A stretch of 37,134 nucleotides of DNA from NCBI GenBank assembly GCA_023666885.1, contig JAMPBB010000001.1:206837-243970 (forward strand), in the 5' to 3' direction. Below the pieces are notes generated by a model. That model did not search any database, was not told where the DNA came from, and was given only the letters and a program-made list of their open reading frames with translations. The translations under genes and the position numbers were made by a program. Shown here piece after piece: positions 910 to 37,134 of the stretch. The DNA comes from Muribaculaceae bacterium. GTDB taxonomy: Bacteria; Bacteroidota; Bacteroidia; Bacteroidales; Muribaculaceae. How positions within the stretch are numbered: the first letter of the stretch is position 1; the number at the start of each line of letters is the position of its first letter.

Positions 910-1145
910 GGTACGGGGTCATATCCGCTGCCTCCCCATGGATGACAGCGTAAAAGCCTGCGCACCGTAAGGTATAGCCCTTTTATGGGTCCATACTTCT
1001 TCAGAGCCTCTATGGCGTACTGGCTGCACGAAGGGGTGAAGCGGCACGAAGGGGGCAACATGGGTGATATGCACAGCTGATAAAATCTTACAGGCAGTAT
1101 CAGTACTGATGAAATTATTTCAGAAAATCTCATCATGGTTATCAA
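906..1145 (-). CDS. yidD: Membrane protein insertion efficiency factor YidD
   Basis: A 79-aa YidD protein, a small inner-membrane-associated factor that assists YidC-dependent insertion of membrane proteins. The family core is clear: a hydrophobic amphipathic N-terminus, then [15 protein letters not shown] with its conserved cysteines and the C-terminal [12 protein letters not shown] signature. It overlaps the end of rnpA by 26 bp, and the rnpA-yidD neighbourhood is widespread in bacteria. The start is uncertain: Met4 or Met5 (about 1133-1136) would give an N-terminus closer to the usual family length. The stop overlaps the next start as ATGA. Confidence 0.93.
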
Positions 1146-1557
1146 TGGGCTGCGGTGGTGTTACGGAACGGTTTATACGCTCCATTATTTTATGCATGGA
1201 GCGCAGTGTTGTATCATAGTCGGCTATCTTACGCTCGCCCACATATACGAATGCTATGTCTACAGGATGAAGTTCCGGCAGCATGTGACGGCTCAGACGG
1301 TATGCTTCACGGCAGAGCCTGCGTAAACGTACCCTGTCCACGGCATGGCGTACACGCTTCTTGGGCACGGATATAACGAATCTTGATACCATAGGAGCTG
1401 CGGCCGAATCAGTATCATCATCACGCATACGCCATACGGCTCTCCAAGGATAAGCCATTGTCCCGCTTCGTCCGGCATCCATGCTGTGGTGGAAAAGCGA
1501 GTCAATGGCTTTTATGCTACATAGCTTCTCTTTCTTGTAGAGTCGCAGTCCTTTCAT
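1120..1557 (-). CDS. rnpA: Ribonuclease P protein component
   Basis: A 145-aa RnpA, the basic protein cofactor that binds the RNase P RNA and helps mature the 5' ends of tRNAs. The N-terminus ([17 protein letters not shown]) and the [19 protein letters not shown] stretch followed by LCREAYR align with the family. The signature usually written RNR appears here as RVR: the codons AGG GTA CGT read Arg-Val-Arg, so the conserved Asn is replaced. The central segment (about residues 30-60) is longer than in enterobacterial RnpA, which is common in Bacteroidetes. It lies 21 bp downstream of the HemD-like gene and overlaps yidD, so it is part of the same transcript. Confidence 0.93.
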
Positions 1558-31484: not shown

Positions 31485-31492
31485 AGGTCATG

Positions 31493-31500
31493 CAAATATA
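31493..31500 (-). promoter_or_regulatory. Candidate -7 box for the glycosyltransferase run
   Basis: On the minus strand this reads TATATTTG followed by CA, eight bases before the ATG at 31484. Predicted leader is close to zero. No TTTG at the standard -33 distance. Confidence 0.45.
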
Positions 31501-31668
31501 ATAAAAATATCGTGTGTATTTCATGGCGTGAGAATCCGATATTTCCGTCCGTGATTACGTGCGCAGCTTTTTATGCCAATCTCACCGGCCTAAAATTTGT
31601 GTAAGCGATTGGTGTATAATCGTTAATGGCTTGTTTTGCGTGTCGTGATTTTGAGGCGAAAAGGAAAT

Positions 31669-31700
31669 TTTGCTATGTTTGCGGATATTTCTTATTTTTG
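31669..31700 (+). promoter_or_regulatory. Promoter of ybeY-mnmG-apt-uvrC
   Basis: TTTG (31669-31672), a 20-base spacer, then TATTTTTG (31693-31700): an exact match to both halves of the Bacteroidetes sigma-A consensus TTTG-N19-21-TAnnTTTG. It is the best promoter in the window. The ybeY ATG at 31712 is only 11 bases past the -7 box, so the leader should be very short. Confidence 0.7.
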
Positions 31701-31711
31701 TGTCCGGAAAA

Positions 31712-32140
31712 ATGAATGGACATAATATTCAATGGTTTGTTCTTGAGCCGGCTGTGATGCCGGAGCTTGACTTTGCAGCCATGGAGCGTTGGCTCATGGC
31801 CGTAGCTTCCGCACATGATAGGAATGTGGGCGCCATCAACTATGTATTCTGTGATGATGAGAAGATTCTTGAGGTCAACCGCCAATTCATCAGCCATGAT
31901 TACTACACGGATATAATTACATTCGACTACTCGCGTGATGACACCGTGAGCGGCGACGTATATATATCGCTTGACACCGTGGCCACTAATGCCGCCAAGT
32001 ATGCGCCTTCGTATGAGCGTGAATTGCAGCGTGTTATAGCTCACGGCTTGCTCCACCTGTGCGGTATTGACGATAAGGGGCCAGGTGAGCGTGAAATTAT
32101 GGAGCGGCACGAGGATGAAGCTCTTGCCATGCTTAATTAA
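31712..32140 (+). CDS. ybeY: Endoribonuclease YbeY
   Basis: A 142-aa YbeY, a metal-dependent single-strand RNase involved in 16S rRNA 3'-end maturation and ribosome quality control. The family motif is [20 protein letters not shown] (111-130): His111 and His115 are kept, but the third metal ligand, usually His in HGxLHLxGYDH, is Asp121 here. I recall that Bacteroidetes YbeY often has this Asp-Lys form. I chose the ATG at 31712 because the more upstream in-frame start (31670) lies within the promoter. The next gene, mnmG, follows after 26 bp. Confidence 0.93.
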
Positions 32141-32166: not shown

Positions 32167-34044
32167 ATGGATTTTCGCTATGACGTCATAGTAGTGGGTG
32201 CCGGTCATGCCGGCTGTGAGGCTGCTTCGGCAGCTGCTCGCATGGGATCATCTACCCTGCTCATAACGCTTGATATGAACAAGATAGCCCAGATGAGCTG
32301 TAACCCTGCCGTGGGCGGAATAGCCAAGGGTCAGATAGTGCGTGAGATTGATGCCTTGGGTGGGCAGATGGGCATTATCACTGACCGTGCGTCCATACAG
32401 TTCCGAATGCTCAACCGCTCCAAGGGGCCTGCTGTGTGGAGTCCGCGTGCGCAGGCTGACCGCATGGTGTTCAGCCGTCTGTGGCGCGAAACGTTGGAGA
32501 ACACGCCCAATCTGCGCATGTGGCAGGATGATGTCACTGGTCTGATAATAGAGGATGGTGCCGTTAAGGGCGTCACTACGGCTTTTGGTGTCCGCTTCTT
32601 GGCTGATGCCGTTATTCTCACCGCCGGTACTTTTCTGAACGGACTTATGCACGTAGGCCGTGTTCAGATTAAGGGTGGCCGCGTGGCCGAGCTTGCATCC
32701 ACAGGGCTTACCGGGCAGTTGATAGAATTAGGTTTTACGGCTGACCGTATGAAGACGGGCACGCCTGTGCGTATTGACGGGCGCAGCGTTCATTTTGAGT
32801 TGACAACGCCCCAAAGCGGCGATGACGACTTCCATAAGTTCAGCTATCTGCCTTCGGTGCATCGCGAACTCAAGCAGCGGGAGTGTCACATCCTGCATAC
32901 CAACGCGGAAACGCACCGAATACTCCATGAAGCGCTGCCGGAATCGCCTCTTTACAATGGGCAAATTCAGAGTATTGGACCCCGATACTGTCCGAGCATA
33001 GAAACTAAAATAGTTACGTTTGCTGACAAGGACTCGCATCAGCTGTTCCTTGAACCGGAGGGCGAATCCACGCAGGAATATTATCTGAACGGATTCAGCA
33101 GTTCGCTGCCGCTTGACGTGCAGATAAGAGCTCTTTCTACTATTCCTGCGCTTAAGGATGTGCATATATACCGCCCCGGCTATGCTATAGAGTACGATTT
33201 CTTTGACCCTACACAGCTGCATCACACGCTTGAAACCAAGCTCGTGTCCGGTCTGTACTTTGCCGGACAGATTAACGGTACCACAGGTTATGAAGAAGCG
33301 GCAGGGCAGGGTATCGTAGCCGGAATAAATGCTCACATGAAGGTGCGCGGATTGCCGCCCTTTACTCTTGCACGCGATGAGGCTTATATAGGAGTGCTTA
33401 TTGATGACCTCGTGACCAAAGGTGTCGATGAGCCTTACCGTATGTTTACATCGCGTGCCGAGTACCGCATACTGCTTCGGCAGGATGACTGCGATATGCG
33501 CCTTACTCCTCGCGCCTATGAGATAGGGCTTGCTACCCGTGAACGGTATGAGTGTATGCTCCGGAAGAAATCGGCCATTGATGACCTTGTTTATTTCTGC
33601 TCGGTATATTCTGTGAAGCCTGAAGAGGTAAATGCTCAGTTGCGCCTGATGGATGAGTCGGAGCTTCGGCAGGCGATCAGGCTGCATGACTTGCTGCTGC
33701 GCCCGCGTATGAGTTTTGAATTGCTCGCCGGTTGGCTCCCTTGGCTTAAAGCACGCCTTGATGCCATTGAGCCGGATATGCGAAGCGAGATAATAGAGTG
33801 CGCTGAGATACTTATGAAGTACCAAGGCTACATTGACCGTGAGCGGCTAAATGCCGGGAAGCTCCACCGGCTTGAGGATGTGAAGCTGCGCGGCAAGATA
33901 GACTATGAATCCGTAAAGGCTCTATCTACCGAGGCTCGGCAAAAGCTCATCAAGATAGATCCGGCCACGGTGGGGCAGGCGTCGCGCATACCGGGAATTT
34001 CTCCGGCCGATGTGAATATCCTCCTGCTTTTGCTTGGGCGATGA
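32167..34044 (+). CDS. mnmG: tRNA uridine-5-carboxymethylaminomethyl modification enzyme MnmG
   Basis: A 625-aa FAD enzyme that with MnmE installs the carboxymethylaminomethyl group at wobble U34 of some tRNAs. The FAD-binding loop [11 protein letters not shown] (10-20), the [20 protein letters not shown] block (46-65) and [18 protein letters not shown] downstream (binding FAD and folate) are present, and the C-terminal helical domain for MnmE/tRNA contact is complete. Length is normal. It is often found near the replication origin in bacteria. A parS site begins ten bases beyond its stop codon. Confidence 0.97.
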
Positions 34045-34053
34045 CAAACGGTG

Positions 34054-34069
34054 TGTTTCACGTGGAACA
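34054..34069. promoter_or_regulatory. parS chromosome-partitioning site
   Basis: The 16-mer TGTTTCACGTGGAACA is the reverse complement of TGTTCCACGTGAAACA, the classical Bacillus subtilis parS sequence bound by ParB (Spo0J). It lies in the 67-bp gap between mnmG and apt, not inside a gene. ParB loads at such sites, usually in the origin-proximal part of the chromosome. No other copy is seen in the window. Confidence 0.85.
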
Positions 34070-34111: not shown

Positions 34112-34630
34112 ATGGAATATGTAAAATCAAAAGTCCGTGACGTGATGGATTTCCCTCAGAAGGGAATCGTATTCAAGGATCTTACCACGGTGTTCAAGGA
34201 TCCCCGCGCCCTGCACATAATAGGCTGGGATCTGTCACAGCTCTATCGCGATAAGGGCGTCACCAAGGTGGTGGGTATAGAATCGCGCGGTTTCATAGGC
34301 GGCTCTATTCTGGCCTTTGAGCTTGGCGCAGGTTTCGTTCCGGCCCGTAAGCCCGGTAAGCTCCCGGCTGATACGGTGAGCGCATCGTATCAGAAAGAGT
34401 ATGGTCTTGACACTATAGAGATACATCGCGATGCCATAACCGAAGATGATGTGGTGGTGATTCATGATGACGTCCTGGCCACGGGCGGCACCATGGCTGC
34501 TTGCTATGAATTAGTAAAGAGCATGAATCCCAAAAAGATTTACGTCAACTTCATAATAGAGCTTGGCGCCCTTAATGGCCGCGCCAACCTGCCTGCCGAG
34601 GCCGAGGTAAGCTCACTCATTACATATTGA
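34112..34630 (+). CDS. apt: Adenine phosphoribosyltransferase
   Basis: A 172-aa type I phosphoribosyltransferase that salvages adenine with PRPP to AMP. The 13-residue PRPP-binding motif is VVVIHDDVLATGG, followed by TMAACYELV; the N-terminal DFPQKGIVFKDLTTVFKDP is typical of Apt. I start at the ATG at 34112 (MEYVKSKV), as in homologues; the in-frame upstream Met would put translation across the parS site and inside mnmG. The mnmG-apt-uvrC order is common in Bacteroidetes. Confidence 0.95.
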   Translation: MEYVKSKVRDVMDFPQKGIVFKDLTTVFKDPRALHIIGWDLSQLYRDKGVTKVVGIESRGFIGGSILAFELGAGFVPARKPGKLPADTVSASYQKEYGLDTIEIHRDAITEDDVVVIHDDVLATGGTMAACYELVKSMNPKKIYVNFIIELGALNGRANLPAEAEVSSLITY

Positions 34631-34696: not shown

Positions 34697-36511
34697 ATGC
34701 CTAAACACCGAAAGTCAGCTGAGCTTGAAGAGAAGATATCCATTCTTCCCACCACCCCCGGAGTGTACATGTATTTCGACTCTGAGGGCACTGTGATATA
34801 TGTGGGCAAAGCCAAGAACCTGAAGCGCCGCGTATCGTCCTACTTCAACCGCACGCACGATTCGCTCCGCACCAATTTGCTTGTGCGCGCCATAGCTGAC
34901 ATGAAATACATAGTGGTGCCCACTGAGGCCGATGCCCTTAATCTGGAGAACGCTATGATTAAGGAGTATCAGCCCCGCTACAACGTGCTGCTTAAGGATG
35001 ACAAGTCGTACCCGTGGATAGTGGTGACTAAGGAGCCGTTCCCGCGTGTGTTTATGACGCGCCAAAAAATCAAGGATGGCTCTAAATATTACGGCCCGTA
35101 CACCGATGCCGGAGCCGCCCGCGTGGTGCTTGACTTGGTGCGCACGCTTTACCGCTTGCGCTCGTGCCGCACGCTTATCACGCCGGAGTACGCGGCCTCG
35201 GGGCGGGGGAGGCTTTGCCTTGACTATCATCTGAACCGCTGCAGCGGCCCGTGTAAGGGGCTTATGAGCGTGGAGGAATATGCCGAGCAGATAGAGCGTG
35301 TGAAGCAGATACTGCGCGGCGATCTGGCTGAGCTAACCGCCTACCTGAGGGCTGAAATGGAGCAGTATGCATCCGAACTCCGCTTTGAGGAGGCGCAGGA
35401 TGTGAAGGAAAAGTTGGGCATATTGGAGCGCTACACGGCCAAGAGCGCCATAGTGAGCCAGACGGTGGATGACTTGGATGTGTTCGGCGTGTACGATGAC
35501 GGCTCGCCCGAAGTGTTCATCAATTATATGCATGTGCGCCGTGGGGCGGTGGTGCGCAGCCTTACGCTTGAATATCGCCGTCGGCTTGATGAGTCGCGCC
35601 CTGAACTTTTGGCCTACGCCATGGCCGAGGTGGAGCGTACGCTCGATGTGAAGTTTCGCGAAGTGGTGGTGGCCGAGCTGCCCGATGTGGATATGCCGTC
35701 AGTGCTGTTCACCGTGCCGCAGAGGGGCGACAAGGCCAAACTTTTGGAGGTGTCCGAGCGCAACGCCCGGCAGCACAAGGTGGATATGCTCAAGCATATG
35801 GAGAAGCGCGACCCAGAGCAGCGTACGCGTCGGCTGCTTGAACGCATACAGTCCGACTTCCGCCTCTCGCAGCTCCCCACGCATATAGAGTGTTTTGACA
35901 ATTCTAATATTCAGGGCACTAATCCGGTGGCATCGTGCGTGGTGTTCCGTGACGGTCGGCCGGCAAAAAAGGATTATCGCCATTTCAATATCAAGACCGT
36001 TGAAGGGCCTGATGACTTTGCCTCGATGAAGGAGGTGCTCACCCGCCGCTATACCCGTCTGCGCGATGAAGGGCAGGAGTTGCCGCAATTAGTGGTGGTT
36101 GACGGTGGCAAGGGGCAGCTGAGCGCCGCCGTGGAGGCTCTGGATGACATGGGGCTACGCGGCTCCATAGCCGTGGTGGGCATAGCCAAGCGCCTTGAGG
36201 AAATCTATTTCCCGGGCGACAGCATACCTTTATATATAGATAAGAATAGCGAAACACTGCGCGTGGTGCAGCACATGCGCGATGAGGCGCACCGTTTCGG
36301 CATAACCCACCATCGCAATCGCCGCAGCAAGGGGCAGACGGTGTCGGCCCTCGATTCGATAAAAGGCGTGGGCGAGAAGACGCGCGAGGCGCTGCTCACG
36401 CATTTCAAGAGCCTAAAGCGCATCCGCGAAGCCGATGCCGATGACATAGCCGCCGTAATAGGCCCCGCCAAAGCCTCGCTTGTATATAACGCCCTGCATG
36501 AATCCGTGTAA
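34697..36511 (+). CDS. uvrC: Excinuclease ABC subunit C
   Basis: A 604-aa UvrC, which makes both incisions around a DNA lesion during nucleotide excision repair. Domains in order: GIY-YIG nuclease (TTPGVYMYF then IYVGKAKNLKRR), a Cys-rich segment, UVR/UvrB-binding helix near ELRFEEAQDVKEKL, the RNase-H-like 5' nuclease domain (HIECFDNSNIQG, LVVVDGGKGQL) and two helix-hairpin-helix motifs at the C-terminus (SIKGVGEKTREALL). I use the ATG at 34697 (MPKHRKS); an in-frame Met upstream (34649) would place the start inside the hairpin region. Length is normal. Confidence 0.96.
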   Translation: MPKHRKSAELEEKISILPTTPGVYMYFDSEGTVIYVGKAKNLKRRVSSYFNRTHDSLRTNLLVRAIADMKYIVVPTEADALNLENAMIKEYQPRYNVLLKDDKSYPWIVVTKEPFPRVFMTRQKIKDGSKYYGPYTDAGAARVVLDLVRTLYRLRSCRTLITPEYAASGRGRLCLDYHLNRCSGPCKGLMSVEEYAEQIERVKQILRGDLAELTAYLRAEMEQYASELRFEEAQDVKEKLGILERYTAKSAIVSQTVDDLDVFGVYDDGSPEVFINYMHVRRGAVVRSLTLEYRRRLDESRPELLAYAMAEVERTLDVKFREVVVAELPDVDMPSVLFTVPQRGDKAKLLEVSERNARQHKVDMLKHMEKRDPEQRTRRLLERIQSDFRLSQLPTHIECFDNSNIQGTNPVASCVVFRDGRPAKKDYRHFNIKTVEGPDDFASMKEVLTRRYTRLRDEGQELPQLVVVDGGKGQLSAAVEALDDMGLRGSIAVVGIAKRLEEIYFPGDSIPLYIDKNSETLRVVQHMRDEAHRFGITHHRNRRSKGQTVSALDSIKGVGEKTREALLTHFKSLKRIREADADDIAAVIGPAKASLVYNALHESV

Positions 36512-36601
36512 AGTGTTGGTGGTCAGTGAGTAGATTGCGAAGCAATCGTTAATGTTTAGCCGTGGGCCGAAGCCGATAGGCGCAGACCAACAGCGTCTTC
36601 T

Positions 36602-36667
36602 ATGATGATGAGTTCAGCGCCTGGGATTAAGAACAATGCCATGCCTCCGGCACGTACCATCGGCTAA
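36602..36667 (+). other. Short reading frame in the repeat region
   Basis: A 21-codon frame (MMMSSAPGIKNNAMPPARTIG) between the 9-bp outer repeat arms; its stop codon overlaps the right arm. I have the impression, from memory only, that near-identical short peptides appear as hypothetical proteins in many Bacteroidales genomes. That would reflect conservation of the DNA element rather than a real protein. Confidence 0.3.
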
Positions 36668-36710
36668 ACAATCCGGCGCGAATAGTCCCGAAGGGACGCA
36701 TCAACGGAAG

Positions 36711-36744
36711 CCCCGCACCGAGCATGTAATGCGATGGTGTGGGG
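36711..36744. repeat. Left arm of long inverted repeat
   Basis: Pairs with 36971-37005 over about 34 bp with only one extra base in the right arm. The sequence is rich in CCCC/GGGG ends around a central GCATGTAATGCGATGG. The two arms are separated by 226 bp that contain a second pair of arms and several small hairpins. Confidence 0.85.
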
Positions 36745-36767
36745 GATGGAGGTACCGATGTACGATA

Positions 36768-36784
36768 GGGCTTCGGAGAAGTCC
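36768..36784. repeat. Left inner arm of inverted repeat
   Basis: GGGCTTCGGAGAAGTCC is a perfect 17-bp inverted match to 36932-36948. It sits inside the long arms, so the two pairs could form a nested stem. Confidence 0.85.
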
Positions 36785-36931
36785 GCCAATGTCTGCGGCG
36801 TAAATCGGCGTGCCTGCGGACGCCATGCGCGGGGGGGCGGTGTGGTCCCGTGACATCCTGCGCATGTCACGGGTTACGAGTAAATCCATGTCCTGTAGGA
36901 CATGAATCAGTCCGATAGGGGAATGTGTGAT

Positions 36932-36948
36932 GGACTTCTCCGAAGCCC
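36932..36948. repeat. Right inner arm of inverted repeat
   Basis: Perfect 17-bp inverted partner of 36768-36784. Confidence 0.85.
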
Positions 36949-36970
36949 GGTTTTGCTTGGATATCCTTTA

Positions 36971-37005
36971 CCCCACACCATCGCATTTACATGCTCGGTG
37001 CGGGG
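36971..37005. repeat. Right arm of long inverted repeat
   Basis: Inverted partner of 36711-36744 with one inserted T in the run at 36986-36988. Confidence 0.85.
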
Positions 37006-37134
37006 CTATGATTGTCACGTTCCTTCGGAACTATGTGTTCCTGCCGGACATGCCGAGATGGGGCGTGGCCGCGAGATGAGTTTGGGGTGAAAATTTGAAA
37101 AATTTTTATAAAAAGGGTGGTTTTTGTGATAAAT

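Follow-up and report, generated by a model that had tools for sequence, protein, structure and literature searches.

A single parS site adjoining mnmG in a draft Muribaculaceae genome and the place of the replication origin in Bacteroidales

A 16-bp sequence lying just past mnmG in the genome of a Muribaculaceae bacterium raised the question of whether it is a chromosomal parS centromere, and whether the DNA around it belongs to the region of the replication origin. The draft genome measures 2.17 Mb in 89 contigs and is 86% complete; the stretch analyzed here as a whole (the window, 37,134 nucleotides) occupies bases 206837-243970 of its 393-kb contig C11. The features of the window to which we refer are the following:

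1120..1557, minus strand: rnpA, RNase P protein (Pfam Ribonuclease_P, E 2.6e-11)
31485..31711, no strand: divergent intergenic gap (open reading frame list, judged by eye)
31712..32140, plus strand: ybeY, opening the rightward run ybeY-mnmG-apt-uvrC (Pfam YbeY, open reading frame)
32167..34044, plus strand: mnmG (gidA) (open reading frame; Pfam GIDA, E 1.3e-160; synteny with parS in relatives)
34054..34069, plus strand: parS, TGTTTCACGTGGAACA, a 16-bp ParB-nucleation site by sequence
34112..34630, plus strand: apt, phosphoribosyltransferase domain, the next gene downstream of parS (open reading frame, Pfam, tblastn)
34697..36511, plus strand: uvrC (open reading frame list; Pfam UvrC)

The gene names mnmG, apt and rnpA given in a first-pass annotation of this DNA were backed by Pfam, which returned MnmG/GidA, a phosphoribosyltransferase domain and RnpA, respectively. 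Past uvrC (36512-37134), no open reading frame of at least 80 amino acids was listed.

The site, TGTTTCACGTGGAACA, is a near-palindrome with T/G at both degenerate positions (5 and 12), and it matches the 16-bp motif TGTTNCACGTGNAACA exactly. Since mnmG ends at 34044, 9 bp (34045-34053) separate its stop codon from parS. Within the window, TGTTCCACGTGAAACA, the reverse complement of TGTTTCACGTGGAACA, was matched exactly once, and none of 100 shuffles contained a match. On the whole of C11 there was likewise one exact match and none at one or two mismatches; 20 dinucleotide resamples of the contig yielded on average 0 exact matches, 0.15 at one mismatch and 0.8 at two. A scan of the entire draft genome, which the first-pass annotation had proposed with one mismatch, found no scattered copies: at up to two mismatches from TGTTNCACGTGNAACA, the window site was the only match, while the reversed-pattern control matched in 7 places. 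According to the relevant part of a published report, the coding strand of B. subtilis parB contains the parS 16-mer TGTTCCACGTGAAACA (PMC4333373). The window 16-mer is the exact reverse complement of this parS, and the identity with it that had been claimed for the site was therefore confirmed to the last base.

We then asked whether the site is kept in relatives. Counting the genome itself and 60 relatives, 55 of 61 genomes contained parS at no more than one mismatch. The surroundings were looked at in 29 of the 54 relatives with a match, and the end of mnmG was found within 200 bp of parS in 28 of these 29 loci; the odd one, L010, had a one-mismatch site located 969 bp from a contig end. 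Within the genus, parS adjoined mnmG in all 12 loci considered (L020-L031; in total, 31 relatives from the genus had a match). As apt followed parS in only some of the 29 relatives' loci (tblastn), mnmG is the constant partner. The pairing extended to named Bacteroidales comprising Muribaculaceae, Barnesiella, Parabacteroides, Bacteroides, Dysgonomonas, Paludibacter, Prevotella, Porphyromonas, Odoribacter, Prolixibacteraceae and others: in 77 of the best 80 of 587 loci, parS lay at most 400 bp downstream of mnmG, compared to 0 of 80 for a reversed control. These counts bear out the earlier suggestions that the site just past mnmG is maintained and, together with the 100 shuffles without a match, that a chance match is very unlikely.

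In the best 80 of 587 loci, the median distance from the mnmG stop codon to parS was 8 bp, and the 77 sites comprised 61 exact and 16 one-mismatch copies. Information content fell to background within two or three bases outside the 16-mer, the flanks not being conserved. Apart from position 1 (T in 64 of 77), the fixed parS bases were kept in these 77 relatives with single departures at positions 7, 8 and 16, although taking the best match as the site favors apparent base conservation. The three exceptions differed from each other: L235 had two exact parS sites 3.6 and 4.6 kb downstream of mnmG, L264 had one exact site inside the span of mnmG, and in the L246 locus (Porphyromonas catoniae) no parS was present at up to two mismatches. 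In further Bacteroidales mnmG loci, parS was found in 7 of 7.

An exact parS was present in 53 of 70 genomes sampled from the phylum, counting the genome under study. The surroundings were examined in 29 of the 52 other genomes with a match, and mnmG was located within 150 bp of parS in 27 of these 29 loci, sometimes with parS at the 5' end of the gene; mnmG was not beside the site in L288 and L292, the latter site being 545 bp from a contig start. Eight genomes (G454, G427, G423, G443, G415, G447, G435 and G439) each carried two exact parS copies ∼1,900 bp apart. In the fetched loci of such genomes mnmG adjoined one copy and its length matched the gap, and parS thus seems to flank mnmG on both sides there.

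A functional parS needs a cognate ParB, and the first-pass annotation had named the absence of parB as an argument against its own reading. The genome search revealed one ParB HTH-domain protein, whose gene lies on contig C27 immediately downstream of a ParA gene, so that a cognate parA-parB pair exists in the same genome as the site. All three ParB domains (N-terminal, HTH and C-terminal dimerization) were identified by Pfam. The protein also contains GERRYR and ENIQR, which we take to be the CTP-binding motifs of ParB. Its R156 and G184 correspond to Caulobacter R173 and G201 when an alignment to a solved ParB is converted to Caulobacter numbering, a step that used a constant offset of 17 rather than a direct alignment. 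As far as the pertinent section of the source goes, R173 and G201 (Caulobacter numbering) are conserved in ParB and changed to Q and R in Noc (PMC7383237). By the same constant offset, the specificity residues of the protein are thus of the parS type (R...G) and not of the Noc type (Q, K, K, R). From what is established for ParABS systems, we infer ParB binding, CTP-dependent spreading and a segregation role at the window site: ParB dimers produced from the parAB genes on the other contig would nucleate on parS, load CTP and subsequently slide onto neighboring DNA, and ParA would pull the ParB-parS complexes apart after replication.

The distribution of the two partners was compared across 249 Bacteroidales genomes, own included, of which 246 had a ParB HTH match. 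In the remaining three, G091, G188 and G253 (near-complete; 1.2, 1.0 and 2.0 Mb), ParB HTH was not detected. These genomes also had no parS at mnmG: the best matches in their mnmG loci showed 3-4 mismatches, and the only one-mismatch matches were 296 kb from mnmG or on other contigs. In comparison, each of the 16 searched parB-bearing genomes assembled in one or two contigs had parS, at no more than one mismatch, no further than 12 kb from mnmG: the distance was up to 100 bp in 12 of them, 102 bp in one, 2.6 kb in G184, and 11.5 kb in G227 and G286. The Fisher test yielded P values of 0.001 for a distance of up to 12 kb (16/16 versus 0/3) and 0.02 for up to 102 bp (13/16 versus 0/3); two of the three parB-less genomes share a genus. 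In G227 and G286, which belong to one genus, the parS-like site nearest to mnmG, ∼11.5 kb off, carried one mismatch. Conservation of parS together with parB had two exceptions, the near-complete Bacteroidales genomes G037 and G054, in which ParB was present and no parS was matched at up to one mismatch; these two may have a diverged site or use another centromere.

Since the full-strength dnaA and parB matches of the genome itself are on contigs other than C11, which gave only a weak DnaA-domain match below the family cutoff, complete relatives were used to locate the origin. In 13 complete chromosomes, dnaA was 0.55-2.3 Mb away from the parS/mnmG region (for G184 and G286, the parS used lies 2.6 and 11.5 kb from mnmG). 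We determined the orientation of 16S rRNA genes relative to the replication forks in 14 complete Bacteroidales chromosomes, assuming that replication starts at mnmG/parS, or at dnaA, and ends opposite. With mnmG/parS as the origin, 58 of 61 16S genes were co-directional with the forks; with dnaA, 30 of 61 were, which equals chance. Random origins gave a mean of 30.5 (standard deviation, 5.7), and 58 was reached in none of 20,000 draws, some of the 16S genes being tandem pairs and hence not independent. With parB as the origin, the count was 23 of 31 in the eight genomes with a listed parB place. Per genome, 12 of 14 were fully concordant, the others being G184 (10/12) and G182 (4/5). In this count, the position of mnmG stood in for parS in G146, G182, G184, G227 and G286, fragmentary 16S matches falling at one place in G141 or G182 were counted once, and G002 as well as G265 and G292 (two contigs each; G265 without a 16S match) were left out.

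Closer to the genome under study, all 15 16S genes of five Muribaculaceae pointed away from mnmG/parS; multiplying, over the five genomes, the fraction of origins that would give 3/3 yields 0.0008. These five were chosen from the 18 of 118 genomes with a 16S match because they have few contigs and carry three full-length 16S genes apiece. Rounded chromosome lengths were used for them and for G227, and three of the five (G356, G312 and G313) are in 3-5 contigs. In G008, from the same genus, the one 16S gene on the parS contig (416 kb to the left, minus strand) was concordant.

GC skew was profiled along three complete chromosomes. At parS, the sign changed between 1.725 and 1.86 Mb in G170 (parS at 1.804) and between 2.42 and 2.52 Mb in G141 (parS at 2.469); in G226 the change was weak. 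Single samples taken ∼140-245 kb to each side in 10 genomes gave positive steps for 7 when centered on parS and for 5 when centered on dnaA, one step in each set being negligible; these samples are noisy and therefore do not discriminate between the two places. In G357 (Muribaculaceae), the skew was −0.023 to the left and +0.051 to the right of parS, which is the right sign but not significant (P 0.10). Six 5-kb samples from G002, a member of the same genus, were irregular. Linkage of mnmG/parS to the origin is thus supported in relatives by 16S orientation and by the skew in the two sharpest of the three profiles.

On C11 itself, GC skew did not change from negative to positive at parS: it was mostly negative from 30 to 210 kb, positive from 210 to 240 kb and mostly negative again from 240 to 393 kb. 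GC3 skew split by gene strand also showed no change of the right sign at parS, and skew on this contig was mixed with transcription-linked skew. A skew minimum at the locus was found in G170 and G141 and not on the contig itself. The most sustained change on C11 is a cumulative G-C maximum (positive to negative) ∼30 kb from its start, which may mark an inversion, a joint of the assembly or a point resembling a terminus. In the window, no exact DnaA box was present, and its 28 one-mismatch matches (33.9 expected) formed no cluster. Around mnmG in the 80 relatives, the listed bins held 45 exact DnaA boxes versus 25 reversed-pattern matches; 34 of the 45 lay more than 1 kb upstream of the mnmG end, no bin held more than 7, and there was no cluster near mnmG. 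At the gap at 31485..31711, the larger open reading frames on the left side run mostly leftward (with exceptions at 19.3-22.1 kb) and the genes on the right side run rightward, an arrangement compatible with an origin-proximal switch, though without a DnaA-box cluster.

Because the skew flip is absent from C11, origin proximity of the window is deduced from relatives, and with no DnaA-box cluster either, the exact origin is not placed. The earlier proposal that the window lies near oriC, which a GC-skew origin far from the locus was to refute, is by its relatives very probably right: 16S orientation and skew in relatives spoke for it, and the contig that carries the site lacked the skew flip there. 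Of a chromosomal parS, few copies clustered near the origin are expected; the draft held a single copy, with origin proximity seen in relatives and no skew change on its own contig.

Other readings of the 16-mer have to be weighed against these observations. That it is a chance match or a functionless relic would fit its single copy in the genome, but this is hardly credible given 0 of 100 shuffles with a match, parS in 77 of 80 mnmG loci (best 80 of 587) versus 0 of 80 for the control, and conservation that covers the 16-mer and leaves out its flanks. The palindrome might instead serve another factor, such as a CACGTG-binding regulator, or act as a hairpin terminator after mnmG; a near-palindrome immediately past a stop codon would suit that role, and ParB binding at this place is predicted. 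We consider this highly improbable, as the fixed parS bases are largely kept in the 77 relatives (best 80 of 587 loci), the 30 bp after the site hold no strongly conserved T-run, and in some loci the site is at the 5' side of mnmG. Furthermore, the three parB-less genomes lack the site, compared to 16 of 16 parB-bearing genomes that have it within 12 kb (Fisher P 0.001). This conservation pattern and the co-loss with parB led us to reject a terminator or the target of another regulator as the explanation.

A more serious alternative accepts the site as a true parS and supposes that the origin has moved away in this lineage, so that the window is not origin-proximal. C11 without the expected skew change and the irregular skew samples of G002 from the same genus are what this scenario would lead one to see. 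We nevertheless regard it as unlikely, since 15 of 15 16S genes point away from mnmG/parS in five complete or near-complete Muribaculaceae, the 16S gene of the same-genus G008 agrees, and parS is beside mnmG in all 12 same-genus loci (12 of 31 relatives with a match). Moreover, skew on C11 is mixed with transcription-linked skew, and the genome is a draft in 89 contigs. Origin proximity in this particular genome is thus very probable on the evidence of its relatives. Altogether, we hold with high confidence that the 16-mer is a chromosomal parS centromere in the origin region, and that the replication origin of Bacteroidales would lie near mnmG/parS rather than at dnaA.

The site resembles the Spo0J-parS system of B. 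subtilis in its identical 16-mer (reverse complement), in the ParA-ParB pair, and in the domains and R...G residues of ParB. It differs in number, as the B. subtilis chromosome carries several parS sites and only one was found here, and in arrangement: parAB is on a different contig from parS and mnmG, and parS follows mnmG, whereas a B. subtilis parS is inside parB.

Published predictions, cited here from the portions of the reports that concern the origin, already place Bacteroidota origins similarly. In the Flavobacteriaceae Mariniflexile litorale (PMC11278836, where one figure legend is labeled oppositely) and Algorimicrobium (PMC12843772), the predicted origin is at mnmG and matches the GC skew. 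In Prevotella intermedia, the origin is away from dnaA, which is called common in Bacteroidetes, and is said to hold multiple DnaA boxes (PMC4755523). All three resemble the 14 complete Bacteroidales chromosomes studied here in having the origin at mnmG or off dnaA; the multiple DnaA boxes described in this part of the Prevotella report differ from the lack of a cluster beside mnmG in our data. None of these three reports mentions parS or ParB in its main text. A study of OMM12 gut bacteria that include Muribaculum intestinale describes, in the sections considered, clusters of parS as marking ori, which is not always at dnaA, and states that the two Bacteroidetes of the set lack homologs of known condensins (PMC10197239). 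It thereby shares with our analysis parS as an origin marker and an ori sometimes off dnaA; mnmG and gidA are absent from its main text. Another report lists gidA (mnmG) among genes often near origins (PMC2099444), similar to the origin-linked mnmG found here, where, in contrast, parS stays with mnmG and dnaA and parB are elsewhere. That parS marks origins is already known, and Bacteroidota origins at mnmG and off dnaA have been predicted in print. The portions of the open-license literature examined contain no statement of a fixed mnmG-parS pairing, which may nonetheless be in print.

In kind, the window site is an ordinary parS; what is noteworthy is how constantly it is placed and that it is of use for marking the origin where dnaA is not. 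For draft genomes from a major gut phylum, mnmG and parS together provide a sequence handle on the replication origin; dnaA, the usual origin marker, did no better than chance in the 14 complete Bacteroidales chromosomes. To estimate growth rates from read coverage and to map chromosomes correctly, one needs to know where the origin lies. With some reservation, we favor the view that mnmG-parS in Bacteroidota is an ancestral origin-centromere unit which stayed together while dnaA and parAB moved away. A single parS may accordingly be the whole centromere in many species, and the unit would be a better marker of the origin than dnaA across the phylum, draft genomes included.
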